Shown piece by piece: positions 5,314 through 25,704 of a DNA stretch of 26,669 nucleotides. How positions within the stretch are numbered: position 1 is the stretch's first letter; each line of letters begins with the position of its first letter. Under the pieces are notes generated by a model, which did not search any database, was not told the DNA's origin, and worked only from the letters and a program-made list of their open reading frames with translations. Source of the stretch: a virus; IMG/VR virus record IMGVR_UViG_3300032288_001111, positions 1 through 26,669 of that record. One strand, 5' to 3'. Position numbers and translations under genes: made by a program.

Positions 5314-6267
5314 TTAGTCTTTAAACGTTTGTCTGTATTTGATTAATCTTTCGTGTGCTGACATTTTTTGTTCTTTCATTTCTTCTATTACTTCCTCTTC
5401 AACTTCTTCTTGTGCAAGTTTGTCAGCAATGACTTGCAAAAGTTCAGCTTTAAGTGCTTCGAGTGCTGGTGCAACAATATCCAAAATAGCAGCCTCATCT
5501 GCCTTAGGGTCAACAGCCATAGCTACCTCTTCCTCTTTAGGCTCTTCTTCTACTACTTCTTCTTCTTGTGCTACCTCTTCTTCGATAGGCTCTTCTACTT
5601 CAGCAGCAGCTTCTACCTCTTTTTCTTCGACATCTTTAATCTCTACAATTTCTCCATCTTTTACAACGTAGATTTTGTCCTCGATTAGATGCTCACCATC
5701 GGGTAACTTCATACTATATTTATTTGTTTGTTCCTGTTCGTTAAATTTCAACCCGAAAAACCCCTCAATAGAAAACCCTACTTTACCCAAGTCCACAAGT
5801 TCGTTGTAGTAGTCTTTGTCCGTGATTTGCGCAGTACACATGATTGTACCTTTTTTGACATCTATACCAAACGATTTTGACTTGTCGGTCTCAGGGTCAT
5901 CAACTATCCATGCTTCTAGTACATAAGCTGGTACAACCTCATCTGTATGTTCTACATTAAACAAGTTTTGGTTGTTTAGGTTAGCCATGAATTTAGAAAA
6001 GATTTTCTCGGTCTCTTCCTCTGTGAACTGCACAAAGTATTCTCCATCCTCATCGTTACGATAGATTTCGCTTGGTATCATTAGAGGCGCACATATACGC
6101 ATCTTAGGTTCATCTGCGAAAATCATTTTTTTCTCGTGACTACTGAATGCAATTCCTTTAGTAACAATGGCTGGTTTACGGGTGAATGCTATCATAGATA
6201 CTCCAAGGTCATTACCCTCGCTGTATTCGTCGTCTATGGTTATTTTCTTTATAGGCAATTCACTCAT
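5314..6267 (-). CDS. Prohead protease fused to a scaffold-like tail (XkdF-like)
   Basis: I chose ATG 6267 (MSELPIKKITIDDEYSEG; 317 aa) over 6282, because it follows the ATAGTTATG box seen at other genes. Residues 25-180 look like the XkdF-type serine protease fold: LFNVEHTDE (putative catalytic H107) and GFSIEGFF (putative nucleophile S166). Residues 213-250 are a strikingly Glu-rich low-complexity stretch, then a helical segment at 258-290 and a basic C-terminus (ERLIKYRQTFKD). That layout suits a protease-scaffold that builds the prohead around its C-terminus and later cuts it out. The position directly before the coat gene fits. The third catalytic residue cannot be identified by eye. Confidence 0.75.
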   Translation of the reverse strand: MSELPIKKITIDDEYSEGNDLGVSMIAFTRKPAIVTKGIAFSSHEKKMIFADEPKMRICAPLMIPSEIYRNDEDGEYFVQFTEEETEKIFSKFMANLNNQNLFNVEHTDEVVPAYVLEAWIVDDPETDKSKSFGIDVKKGTIMCTAQITDKDYYNELVDLGKVGFSIEGFFGLKFNEQEQTNKYSMKLPDGEHLIEDKIYVVKDGEIVEIKDVEEKEVEAAAEVEEPIEEEVAQEEEVVEEEPKEEEVAMAVDPKADEAAILDIVAPALEALKAELLQVIADKLAQEEVEEEVIEEMKEQKMSAHERLIKYRQTFKD

Positions 6268-6277
6268 AACTATTTTA
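6265..6277 (-). promoter_or_regulatory. TAAAATAGTTATG start-site box
   Basis: Read on the minus strand, TAAAATAGTTATG ends at the chosen start of the protease gene. The same 13 bases occur at 641-653 in the spacer of the leftmost promoter. It is one of a set of five start-site boxes. Confidence 0.4.
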
Positions 6278-6285
6278 CACATTTA

Positions 6286-6314
6286 TTTGTTAGTGTACAA
6301 TTTTTGTACATTTG
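6286..6314 (+). promoter_or_regulatory. Bacteroidetes-type promoter for the plus-strand gene pair
   Basis: TTTG (6286-6289), 17 bases, then TACATTTG (6307-6314) is an excellent match to TTTG-N17-23-TAnnTTTG. Transcription would start around 6320-6323, only 6-9 bases before ATG 6329, so the mRNA would be nearly leaderless. The spacer and -7 region contain a perfect palindrome (6294-6310). This is the only promoter-like site pointing rightward in the window. Confidence 0.7.
6294..6310. promoter_or_regulatory. Perfect palindrome TGTACAATTTTTGTACA, operator-like
   Basis: TGTACAA and TTGTACA form a perfect 7-bp inverted repeat around TTT. It overlaps the -7 element of the plus-strand promoter and lies in the 61-base divergent gap before the protease gene. 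Binding here by a dimeric regulator would block RNA polymerase. No second full copy of the 17-mer was seen in the window; TGTACA alone recurs at 637-642 in the leftmost promoter. Confidence 0.5.
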
Positions 6315-6328
6315 TGAAAACTTCAACA

Positions 6329-6883
6329 ATGATAGAACTAGGTACAACAACAATCAAAAACAGAGTAGATGAGTTTACTCTAAACGAGTTTCAAACCATC
6401 ACATCGATACTTGCAGATGAGTCACTTGACAAAATAGAACAATGGGTAAAGGTATTCGTGTTTTTAGGCGCAGATGAAAATGAGGTAGATGGTTTAGACT
6501 TTTCCGAGTTTAAGGAATACGTAAAGCAATGGAATGAAAACCAACCTAATCTTGATAATTCATTCTTAAAGTCATTCGATTTAAACGGATACACATATCA
6601 AGCATATGATAATGAGTTTAAGCTGAACGTAAAAGATTTAAAACACATCGAAAAGATTATCAAACAAAAACCATCTGCATACATTCTAGATGTAATGGCT
6701 ATTATATTTAAACGTACTGATTTGTCATCTAGTGAACACTACACAGAAAGTCATTTAAAGCATAAAGCTAAACTTTTTAAAGACCTTGATGCATCTATTT
6801 GCATACCCTATATAAACTATATCGGTCAAAAAATATCTAACACAGCAACACAACTAGATGCAGTTACCGAAGTCGTGGAGTGA
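6329..6883 (+). CDS. Unknown protein, possibly a tail-assembly chaperone (184 aa)
   Basis: The frame is open from 6167, but the start is set to ATG 6329 (MIELGTTTIKNRVDEFTLNE) because a promoter ends at 6314 and the upstream codons overlap the opposite gene. The protein is acidic and helical: 'VDEFTLNEFQTITSILADES' leads, then 'LDFSEFKEYVKQW', and a C-terminal 'FKDLDASICIPYINYIGQKI'. Small acidic helical proteins paired with a second overlapping gene and lying between tail and head genes are often tail-assembly chaperones (G/GT type) that keep the tape measure soluble. That is an inference; a regulator is not excluded. It is transcribed against its neighbours. Confidence 0.6.
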   Translation: MIELGTTTIKNRVDEFTLNEFQTITSILADESLDKIEQWVKVFVFLGADENEVDGLDFSEFKEYVKQWNENQPNLDNSFLKSFDLNGYTYQAYDNEFKLNVKDLKHIEKIIKQKPSAYILDVMAIIFKRTDLSSSEHYTESHLKHKAKLFKDLDASICIPYINYIGQKISNTATQLDAVTEVVE

Positions 6884-7589
6884 CATTAGTCTTGAGCAGT
6901 TTATAGAACTTGCTGAACTAGACAAAAACGAGTTTGATTCATTAATAGAGTATAATGTGCTAGTGTTATCTATTCTTCTAGATGAGGATATAGATGTATT
7001 TGAAGAAATGGAACTAGATGAATTGAATGACTTGATGAAAAAAGTCAATTTTATTCGTAGTTATCCATCTAAAAATCACATACAAAAGCTAGGACATTAT
7101 ACTTTTAAGCCATTCGAGAAACTTTCTTTAGGCGAGTTTATAGATATAGAACACTACTTTAAAGATGGCATCAAAAACCTACCTTTAATTTGTGCTATTT
7201 TGTTTAAGAAAGTTAAGCTAGATGAATGGTCTAATATAAATTATGAGCCTTACACATACGACTTGAACACTAGACAAGAACTTTTCTTAGACATACCTAT
7301 CACCGATGTGTTTAATATATGGACAAGCTACTCGAAATTTCGTGAAAACTTTGTTCAAACATACCAGCCTTTGTTTAGTCAAAAGGTAGATGACGATGAA
7401 GAGATGGATGAGATGACAGCAGAAGAAAAGAAACAAGCTGACCTCGAATCTCGCTATTCAAAATGGGCATGGGAAAATATGGTATATAGTCTAGCTAATG
7501 AAGATATAACCAAGGTAAACGAAATCACGGACATGCCTCTAATATTCGTGTTTAATATGGTTAGTATGAAAGAGGAACTTAGTATGTAG
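6858..7589 (+). CDS. Unknown protein, possibly second tail-assembly chaperone (243 aa)
   Basis: This 243-aa acidic protein starts at ATG 6858 (MQLPKSWSDISLEQFIELAE), 26 bases inside the preceding gene and in the +1 frame relative to it. A TAG lies immediately before the ATG, so it is not simply a fusion. It contains 'LSLGEFIDIEHYFKDGIKNL' and 'NTRQELFLDIPITDVFNIWT', helix patterns common in small phage chaperone-like proteins, and an Asp/Glu-rich stretch near residues 176-195 (VDDDEEMDEMTAEEKKQ). It ends 11 bases past the stop of the opposite-strand gene (7579), so the two are convergent and overlapping. No slippery heptamer was seen in the overlap. Function is inferred from context only. Confidence 0.6.
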   Translation: MQLPKSWSDISLEQFIELAELDKNEFDSLIEYNVLVLSILLDEDIDVFEEMELDELNDLMKKVNFIRSYPSKNHIQKLGHYTFKPFEKLSLGEFIDIEHYFKDGIKNLPLICAILFKKVKLDEWSNINYEPYTYDLNTRQELFLDIPITDVFNIWTSYSKFRENFVQTYQPLFSQKVDDDEEMDEMTAEEKKQADLESRYSKWAWENMVYSLANEDITKVNEITDMPLIFVFNMVSMKEELSM

Positions 7590-23998: not shown

Positions 23999-24985
23999 TT
24001 AAAAAGGTACGTCATCTGGTTTCACATAATTTAATTTCGTCTGTGTTGGTTTGATAGGTTCACGATTAGCATATACACGATTACCTTTCCAATCAATCAT
24101 ATAATACTGATACCTTTCGACATCCAAAAACATCTTGTATGTTCCGTTTTTTGATACACCCTTTGGTTTGCTCTTTGCAACCTTTAGATGCACCTCATTC
24201 GCCTCGCAAATAGAACCATCATTATCTTTTAATCCATATGGAGGTCGCCATGGAATAAGTACACATAGACCTTTCCTAAACCATACTTGACCACCAGCAA
24301 AGTCTCTTGCACTAGGAGGAGGAAAATAAGTCACTTGCTCACCACTAAATAATTCTTTTGTGATTGGTGTTTGGTCTCTCACATGATTTATAATGCAATT
24401 GTGTCTATTCGTCTTTCTAGCATTCTTTCGTGCTATTCCTAAAATTCTTGATAGGTATTTATCTTCTCTACCAAGGTCACTCTGTATATACTCCTCGGTT
24501 AACTCGTTCCATGGGTCTATCGTAGTAGTATGTATTTGAATTTCTTGTGTTCTTTCGATTTCATCTACTAGGTCATAGTAGCCTTGTAGTGTTAAATCTT
24601 CATCTATTGGGTCTACTACAATAAAATGCTTATCTATAAACATCTCTGCTCTTATTTGCTCACCTTGTGTCATTGCATTGTCGCCTATTGTATATGGTTT
24701 ACCTATGTACTTGTAGCATAGTTCTGCATAGATTTCTGCTGCGCTTCCTGTCTCAGGTGAAAATACAACGTGATTCCATCCATACACACACGAAAGATTA
24801 ATTAAGAACTCAAACCATAGTTCAGTCTTACCCGATGCTGGAGCTGCACCTATGTATGTCGTACATCCCTCTTTGATGGTGTAAGGCAATAAGTCCCAAT
24901 CCCATCCAACCGATTTACCTCGCACATTTTTTTTGTGTCTAAGGTCTATCATTTCGTTGTTCACGTTTGATAATCGTTTATACAT
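23999..24985 (-). CDS. DnaB/Twinkle-type replicative helicase (328 aa)
   Basis: The RecA-like core has Walker A GAAPASGKT at residues 46-54, an E-rich loop (SPETGSAAE, 76-84), and the Walker B-type TTTIDPWNEL at 153-162. A strand ending INHVRDQ follows at 199-205, and a C-terminal strand pair (KVAKSKPKG, then YKMFLDVERYQYYMID) ends the domain. The DPWN and 'H-R' elements are typical of Twinkle/T7 gp4-type helicases rather than recombinases. It lacks the N-terminal domain and primase, so the core alone is encoded, or a primase lies outside the window. The start overlaps the initiator stop (TAATG). Confidence 0.85.
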   Translation of the reverse strand: MYKRLSNVNNEMIDLRHKKNVRGKSVGWDWDLLPYTIKEGCTTYIGAAPASGKTELWFEFLINLSCVYGWNHVVFSPETGSAAEIYAELCYKYIGKPYTIGDNAMTQGEQIRAEMFIDKHFIVVDPIDEDLTLQGYYDLVDEIERTQEIQIHTTTIDPWNELTEEYIQSDLGREDKYLSRILGIARKNARKTNRHNCIINHVRDQTPITKELFSGEQVTYFPPPSARDFAGGQVWFRKGLCVLIPWRPPYGLKDNDGSICEANEVHLKVAKSKPKGVSKNGTYKMFLDVERYQYYMIDWKGNRVYANREPIKPTQTKLNYVKPDDVPF

Positions 24986-25704
24986 TAGTCTATAATTGTA
25001 GGGTGAGACATTATTAATCTAGTATCTTTCGTTGATACATCACCATATTTGTCTATCGTAGCACTACGTGAGAAATATTCTATCGTACAATACTGATAAT
25101 TTTTATCCTTATGGAATGAATCGTTTTTGCAGTTGTTTATAGCACTTATGATTTGGTCTTTCTTATATCCTTGTTTTAGTAGTGACATATACTTTTCTTT
25201 TACTGCTTTAGAAACTACGGTAAACTTCCTACCAAAAGCATTATTTATATAAGATAACAAACCATCAAAATCTATGTTATATATTTCTTTTTCTTCTTTT
25301 CTTTCTTCTATTGGTGTCGTCTGTGTTTCATCTGCGTTTCGTTTGCGTTTCATCTGCGTTTCATCTGTGTTGCAAGTATCTTGATAACTCGCATAGTTAC
25401 AGATAGTTATCTGTGTCGTTATGGTGTCGCTTTTTAGTTCAATCATGTTATCCTTTTGAAGCAAGTTTAGAAAACGTCTTACTTTAGATTTATCCCAATT
25501 CCAGCGCTTTGCCCATGTGTCCAATGACATAATACTTTGACCTCGTTTTACATCGTATAATTTACCTTTAATGCTCGTTTTATTATCTAGATAGTTCACA
25601 TTTAAAAGCATATCATTCCATGCTTCATACTTGCTAAATATTCGTTTTTCAGTATACAACCAATGCGTAGTTATAGACCGATGTAATTTAATCCATCCAC
25701 TCAT
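24985..25704 (-). CDS. Replication initiator with an N-terminal winged helix (239 aa)
   Basis: The 239-aa product starts MSGWIKLHRSITTHWLYTEK. Residues 1-110 have a winged-helix pattern found in phage replisome organisers ('WAKRWNWDKSKVRRFLNLLQ' as the recognition helix). A central charged linker carries two DETQ units (114-117 and 125-128) encoded by 11-bp DNA repeats. The C-terminal part (YMSLLKQGYKKDQIISAINN onward, ending near 'YFSRSATIDKYG') resembles the DnaD-like domain that binds DNA and loads helicase. Immediately downstream is the helicase gene. The arrangement parallels lambda O/P-type and Gram-positive initiator loci. Start is after the ATTAGTTATG box. Confidence 0.75.
   Translation of the reverse strand: MSGWIKLHRSITTHWLYTEKRIFSKYEAWNDMLLNVNYLDNKTSIKGKLYDVKRGQSIMSLDTWAKRWNWDKSKVRRFLNLLQKDNMIELKSDTITTQITICNYASYQDTCNTDETQMKRKRNADETQTTPIEERKEEKEIYNIDFDGLLSYINNAFGRKFTVVSKAVKEKYMSLLKQGYKKDQIISAINNCKNDSFHKDKNYQYCTIEYFSRSATIDKYGDVSTKDTRLIMSHPTIID
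25310..25375. repeat. 11-bp tandem repeats, candidate replication origin iterons
   Basis: Four head-to-tail 11-bp units with consensus CTGYGTTTCAT lie at 25321-25331, 25332-25342, 25343-25353 and 25354-25364. A partial fifth lies at 25365-25375 and a degenerate one at 25310-25320. The unit length of one helical turn puts the same face of each unit on the same side. Immediately to the left, 25271-25309 is AT-rich and pyrimidine-rich, as expected for a duplex-unwinding region. The repeats lie within the initiator gene, like the lambda origin in gene O. Confidence 0.6.

Follow-up and report, generated by a model that had tools for sequence, protein, structure and literature searches.

An 11-bp iteron array inside a gp38-like initiator gene as the probable replication origin of a phage

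Introduction

In Bacillus phage SPP1, the origin oriL has been mapped by experiment and lies within gene 38. Its direct repeats, like those of oriR, are bound by the replisome organizer gp38, and both origins have an AT-rich unwinding element (PMC6316719). The embedding of oriL in gene 38 and its binding by gp38 have also been described together with the gp38-like initiator ORF20 of Staphylococcus phage 80alpha, for which an origin within the gene was proposed (PMC5499656). In phage lambda, 19-bp inverted-repeat iterons bind O dimers (PMC5043065). Here, a 26,669-nucleotide stretch of viral DNA (IMG/VR record IMGVR_UViG_3300032288_001111, positions 1 to 26,669; hereafter the window) was analysed, in which a gp38-like initiator gene on the minus strand (24985-25704) carries five 11-bp direct repeats. 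Homology and conservation indicate that the array and its flanks are very probably the replication origin of this phage, located inside the gene of its own initiator and presumably bound by the N-terminal winged helix of that protein. An origin in the initiator gene had been proposed in an earlier note written from the sequence letters, and the proposal is supported by the kept spacing of the repeats, the gp38 homology of the initiator and the published oriL in gene 38.

Results

Initiator protein and its DNA-binding domain

The initiator (239 aa) is a DnaD-like replisome organizer of the SPP1 gp38 type according to its PHROG matches and its homology to SPP1 gene 38. The protein matches PHROG_2514 (DnaD-like helicase loader, 5e-29) and PHROG_428 (replication initiation protein, 1e-9), and shares 36% identity over 190 aa with the product of SPP1 gene 38 (2e-26). 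Among annotated phages, gene 38 of SPP1 and its relatives gave the best-covering match, and further matches were found to DnaD-like initiators of Staphylococcus, Enterococcus, Vibrio and other phages. Both the sequence homology and the N-terminal winged-helix DNA-binding domain are those of the gp38-type initiators (PHROG_2514 / PHROG_186). The Pfam search for the DnaD/DnaB_2 C-terminal domain gave no match above the cut-off, with Phage_rep_org_N and Phg_2220_C weak and below it, and a profile search of solved structures found nothing.

The structure of the initiator was predicted with AlphaFold from an alignment of metagenomic relatives only. Residues 1-108 (25381-25704, minus strand) are modelled confidently as a winged helix from the order of helices and strands, with a predicted local distance difference test score of ~90 over residues 30-100, and presumably form the origin-binding domain. 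The top Foldseek matches of this domain are winged-helix DNA-binding proteins (probabilities of 0.9-1.0), with weak E-values of ~0.01-0.05 (best 0.012). Residues 112-141 are predicted to be disordered, exactly where the array is encoded, and the C-terminal part is predicted to be helical with less certainty.

Iteron array and adjoining AT-rich tract

The array (25320-25374, minus strand) corresponds to codons 107-130 of the initiator gene and consists of five 11-bp units arranged head to tail, CTGTGTTTCAT, CTGCGTTTCGT, TTGCGTTTCAT, CTGCGTTTCAT and CTGTGTTGCAA, with the consensus TGAAACGCAGA on the coding strand and TCTGCGTTTCA on the plus strand. The unit letters and the coordinates 25321-25375 of the earlier note were borne out exactly by the sequence. 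Tandem Repeats Finder reported a period of 11 with 4.7 copies at 25320-25371. The lag-11 self-match score of the array is 33, compared with a maximum of 13 among 100 Markov simulations of 26.7-kb sequence, and no other lag-11 array in the whole window scores as high as 18. An exact scan of the window for the short motif gave 9 matches vs. 7.8 expected; the clustering of the matches is informative, the scan alone is not. The array crosses three reading frames, one 11-bp unit being translated as DETQ, then as KRKR and then as RNA. A second ACGACACC box is located at the far edge of the array (25313-25320, minus strand), where CAAACGACACCA is the commonest sequence (20 of 55 relatives).

The AT-rich, purine/pyrimidine-asymmetric tract at 25240-25309 is a presumed DNA unwinding element, judging from its low stability and its pyrimidine run. 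This tract includes the 60 bp of lowest duplex stability in the window (25240-25299), which adjoin the array; among separate sites, the AT-rich stretch ranks fifth when stability is computed over 39 bp and third over 100 bp. The pyrimidine tract that had been pointed out at 25271-25309 is indeed 87% pyrimidine on the plus strand, and contains the longest pyrimidine run of the window (26 nt, 25284-25309). In 80 of the 83 homologous genes described below, the sequence after the array is richer in AT than the part encoding the N-terminal domain, with tract codons for K/E here and for N in most Firmicutes relatives. The locus shows two features of an oriL-type origin, namely direct repeats in the initiator gene at the linker and an adjacent AT-rich element as measured by helix stability.

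The array might instead be an operator or a silencing site, used for autoregulation of the initiator or for fork stalling, with replication starting elsewhere. Such a role would suit its location inside a transcribed gene, and gp38 bound at SPP1 oriR has been proposed to stall forks (PMC6316719). However, the SPP1 copy within gene 38 is the start site oriL, and here an AT-rich unwinding tract adjoins the array, so that this explanation is improbable.

Conservation of the 11-bp period among homologues

The homologue set comprises 83 distinct genes from phages of Staphylococcus, Bacillus, Enterococcus, Vibrio, Sulfitobacter, Pseudomonas and uncultured hosts. A strong array, defined by a lag-11 score of at least 20, is present in 71 of them, always at the inter-domain linker (starting at gene positions 321-361 and ending at 377-436). 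Outside the linker, these loci (398 kb in all) contain no such array, and within the initiator genes none was obtained with lags of 7, 10, 14 and 16. The linker amino acids are wholly unlike between lineages: NADETQTKRKRNADETQ in the clade of the window, KRHRKDREKTEKEHRKD in Staphylococcus phi575, NQHQNDIKPTSKQHQ in PVL, KRHEKDTKKTQKR in SPP1 and GTPRSEKRDSSGTAAGQQ in a Sulfitobacter phage. The earlier expectation that the 11-bp spacing is kept where linker residues change therefore holds: phages that infect Firmicutes, Proteobacteria or uncultured hosts keep it although their linker peptides are unrelated. In loci L070 and L104, the units share a concerted change from CAG to CTG that falls in several reading frames. 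A search of genome contigs yielded a single locus, L017. Its 4.3-kb contig, assigned to a Candidatus Poribacteria bin, carries a homologue that has the 11-bp array as well, and is probably phage DNA in a metagenomic bin.

A period of this kind could be the by-product of a repetitive, charged protein linker. The linker is of low complexity and predicted to be disordered, and the protein repeats every 11 residues, with DETQ at residues 114 and 125 as previously noted. However, shuffling of synonymous codons with each protein and its codon usage preserved destroys most of the period (p<0.05 in 76 of 83 genes, median z 4.7; for the window gene, 33 observed vs. 16.4+-5.4, p=0.002), and 72 of the 83 genes still pass when the codons are shuffled within the linker only. 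These counts do not represent independent tests because the genes are related. Moreover, the array is conserved equally well at third codon positions and at the first and second ones (entropy 0.64, 0.55, 0.66), unlike the N-terminal domain (1.15, 0.61, 0.45), and linkers of unrelated amino acids keep the 11 bp. The protein by-product is thus very unlikely, and the earlier claim that the DNA period is more than protein repetition stands.

In the SPP1-like phages 049ML001 and Ray17, the GAAACGACA/AAAAAGACA units of the gene-38 linker recur at 11-12 bp, again followed by the AACAACAATGATAA tract. This second stretch lies among the head genes and is mostly non-coding. The sequence after the units, AAACAACAATGATAAACAATGA, is nearly that of the initiator gene encoding INNNDNNEN after the array. 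Comparison of position, setting and layout with the published oriR suggests that this stretch would be oriR. The copy is free of protein constraint and therefore supports DNA as the selected unit. The oriR-like stretches are located at L105:4540-4730 and L107:40690-40870; a small annotated open reading frame of Ray17 (40682-40915) overlaps and may be spurious.

DNA-level constraint and satellite box

Synonymous codon identity was compared among 55 close relatives, using 1440 pairs with an N-terminal domain identity of at most 85% and with the expected level calculated for matching amino acids from codons 1-85. The observed identity equals the expected one over codons 1-90, rises to 0.73-0.84 vs. 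0.43-0.65 expected over codons ~92-148, and is back to 0.57 vs. 0.58 expected over codons 146-155, where fewer comparisons are available. The confinement of the constraint to codons ~92-148 thus outlines a DNA-level element of ~170 bp (25261-25431), which holds the satellite box described below, the array and the start of the AT-rich tract. The span of 25271-25375 given in the earlier note is a real feature, but the DNA-constrained element is larger, at about 25261-25431.

Slippage could have produced the array by neutral tandem duplication, in which case it would have no function. This would explain the variation in unit number from 4 to 9 and the likeness of the units within one genome, as concerted evolution gives. 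However, the period, position and neighbourhood of the array persist across lineages whose N-terminal domains share only ~30-50% identity, the synonymous constraint reaches ~50 bp beyond the array into non-repetitive codons, and the 398 kb of loci hold no comparable array elsewhere; slippage is a very unlikely explanation. A constraint on mRNA structure or another RNA element would agree with the fold of the coding-strand RNA, which is slightly better than that of shuffled sequences (z -2.35). This reading was rejected as having next to no probability, since there is no Rfam match and the consensus structure of 20 relatives is a lone 6-bp stem outside the array (-1.8 kcal/mol, no compensatory change), the array itself being A-rich and unpaired.

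The satellite box, AACGACAC, is located in the wing-hairpin codons (25413-25420, minus strand) and was recognised by its conservation: AACGACAC is kept in 48 of the 55 close relatives and ACGACAC in 54, third codon positions included. For other lineages, the best additional match to the unit of the same lineage lies at this place too, ~35-55 nt before the terminal Y-Q or W/F-Q of the domain, in 15 of 22 genes tested. The lineage-matched copies are near-exact in PVL, L085, Sulfitobacter and SPP1-like phages. This positional clustering and the near-exact copies in some lineages argue for a genuine box, which is rated as likely and no more because the swap control (see Discussion) is only partly discriminating. 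Between the satellite box and the array, positions 25381-25412 contain a strongly conserved TAACTnTnTGTAAnTATGAnAGTTACCAA with a short inverted repeat.

C-terminal domain, gene neighbourhood and host

The C-terminal domain (codons ~142-226; 25027-25281, minus strand) presumably contacts the helicase or its loader. It appears to be exchangeable, since proteins of Riemerella and Flavobacterium phages share this domain while differing in the N-terminal part and in the linker repeats. The N-terminal domains of the 83 genes form one family in a single cluster, joined to C-terminal parts in 12 mutually unrelated clusters, and pairs similar in the N-terminal domain are mostly without a C-terminal match. 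In the initiators of Riemerella phage PT33 and Flavobacterium phage FCL-2 (L108:1052-1130, L109:1087-1158), the linker repeats are 12 bp in PT33 and palindromic units CTCGGAAAATAATCCGA in FCL-2.

The neighbouring gene (23999-24985, minus strand) encodes a probable phage replicative helicase of the RecA/DnaB type, matching PHROG_5482 (1e-38, no function) and PHROG_239 (DNA primase/helicase, 1.5e-9). Its counterpart adjoins the initiator gene also in PT33 and FCL-2, and a gene for a protein resembling the single-stranded DNA-binding protein (SSB) and a NinG gene are close to the initiator gene. The host is likely a member of the Bacteroidota because the helicase and the C-terminal domain of the initiator resemble their counterparts in Flavobacterium and Riemerella phages and the terminase resembles those of Parabacteroides and Bacteroides phages; the phage probably infects Flavobacterium-like bacteria. 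Elsewhere in the window, two plus-strand open reading frames (238 and 243 aa, 6167-7589) stand against the otherwise minus-strand gene order and have no PADLOC match.

Discussion

The proposed origin separates the coding sequence of the DNA-binding domain from that of the domain that would recruit the helicase. Winged-helix N-terminal domains may occupy neighbouring 11-bp units, spaced by about one helical turn, and would also bind the satellite copy ~50 bp away. The bound molecules would lie roughly on one face of the DNA, as the earlier note had proposed, but not exactly so because a helical turn is about 10.5 bp. The assembled initiator complex could then strain and open the AT-rich tract beside the array, and the phage helicase encoded next door would be recruited through the C-terminal domain.

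Several observations weigh against an origin at this site. In the close relative L015 (68% identity; L015:3331-3395), the array is half degenerate, with units 1 and 3 intact, the others worn and a lag-11 score of 6. The period is 12 bp in Listeria A118, Lactobacillus iA2 and Mammaliicoccus phi31 (L037, L036, L033) and 23 bp (11+12) in Pseudoalteromonas SL25 and Vibrio 1.064 (L029, L030). The satellite box of the window clade, AACGACAC, matches the array unit only partially, and in the swap control for the satellite region the own iteron models do not come first for most lineages. No second, oriR-like repeat cluster was found within the 26.7-kb window, the record being a fragment, and a second origin outside this fragment is possible. 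Binding of the repeats by the initiator is established for SPP1; for this phage we infer such binding by analogy, together with melting, initiation and the recruitment of the helicase.

The comparisons slightly favour a broader view, in which the N-terminal domain and the ~170-bp origin would form one self-contained specificity cassette common to phages of several bacterial phyla. The array, the satellite unit in the wing hairpin and the unwinding tract would diverge in concert, with the linker following passively and the cassette joined to many unrelated helicase-recruiting domains. Within the open literature, three features may be new, namely the distribution over several host phyla, the footprint of ~170 bp and the satellite box. 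No origin described for this phage lineage, which probably infects Bacteroidota, was found in the open literature, and the locus provides a mapped, testable candidate. The origins of the gp38-like initiator family would be readable from sequence alone, by the lag-11 period and the synonymous constraint. The homologue collection is a ready data set on the joint change of initiator and origin specificity because the winged-helix fold stays the same from lineage to lineage and the unit sequence does not. The locus also offers a clean case of overlapping codes, in which the DNA sites dictate the protein linker and the same letters encode both the linker and a row of presumed protein-binding sites.

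Among the known systems, the iteron plasmids of the RepE, TrfA and Pi types also have tandem direct repeats beside an AT-rich tract, bound by a winged-helix initiator. However, their iterons are longer (about 17-22 bp) and usually lie outside the rep gene, and the proteins are unrelated. Phage lambda resembles this phage in having an origin (ori-lambda) in the middle of the initiator gene O, with iterons followed by an AT-rich region, the DNA-binding domain encoded before them and the helicase-loading part after. The parallel drawn in the earlier note holds for this layout only because the lambda iterons are 19 bp; the repeats here are 11-bp direct ones and not four 19-bp inverted-repeat iterons, and homology to lambda O is limited to a marginal match to PHROG_345 (E 0.017). 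The DnaD-like initiators of the 80alpha ORF20 and PVL type are gp38-like, and PVL orf46 has a clear 11-bp array (AACCAACATCA), although the unit sequence is another and a DnaC-like loader with the host helicase is used rather than a phage helicase.

SPP1 differs from this phage in its unit sequence (GAAACGCAGAT here against GAAACGACAC) and in its tract, which here consists of K/E codons (AAA/GAA) and not of N codons (AAT/AAC). In addition, the C-terminal part is unrelated or very distant in most relatives, and no separate gp39-type loader was recognised beside the initiator gene here. Nevertheless, SPP1 oriL and its replisome organizer G38P share with this locus a homologous initiator, direct repeats at the same linker and an AT-rich tract directly after them, and the units of gene 38, AGAAACGACAG AGAAACGACAC GAAAAAGACAC GAAAAAGACAC, follow one another at the same 11-bp spacing.
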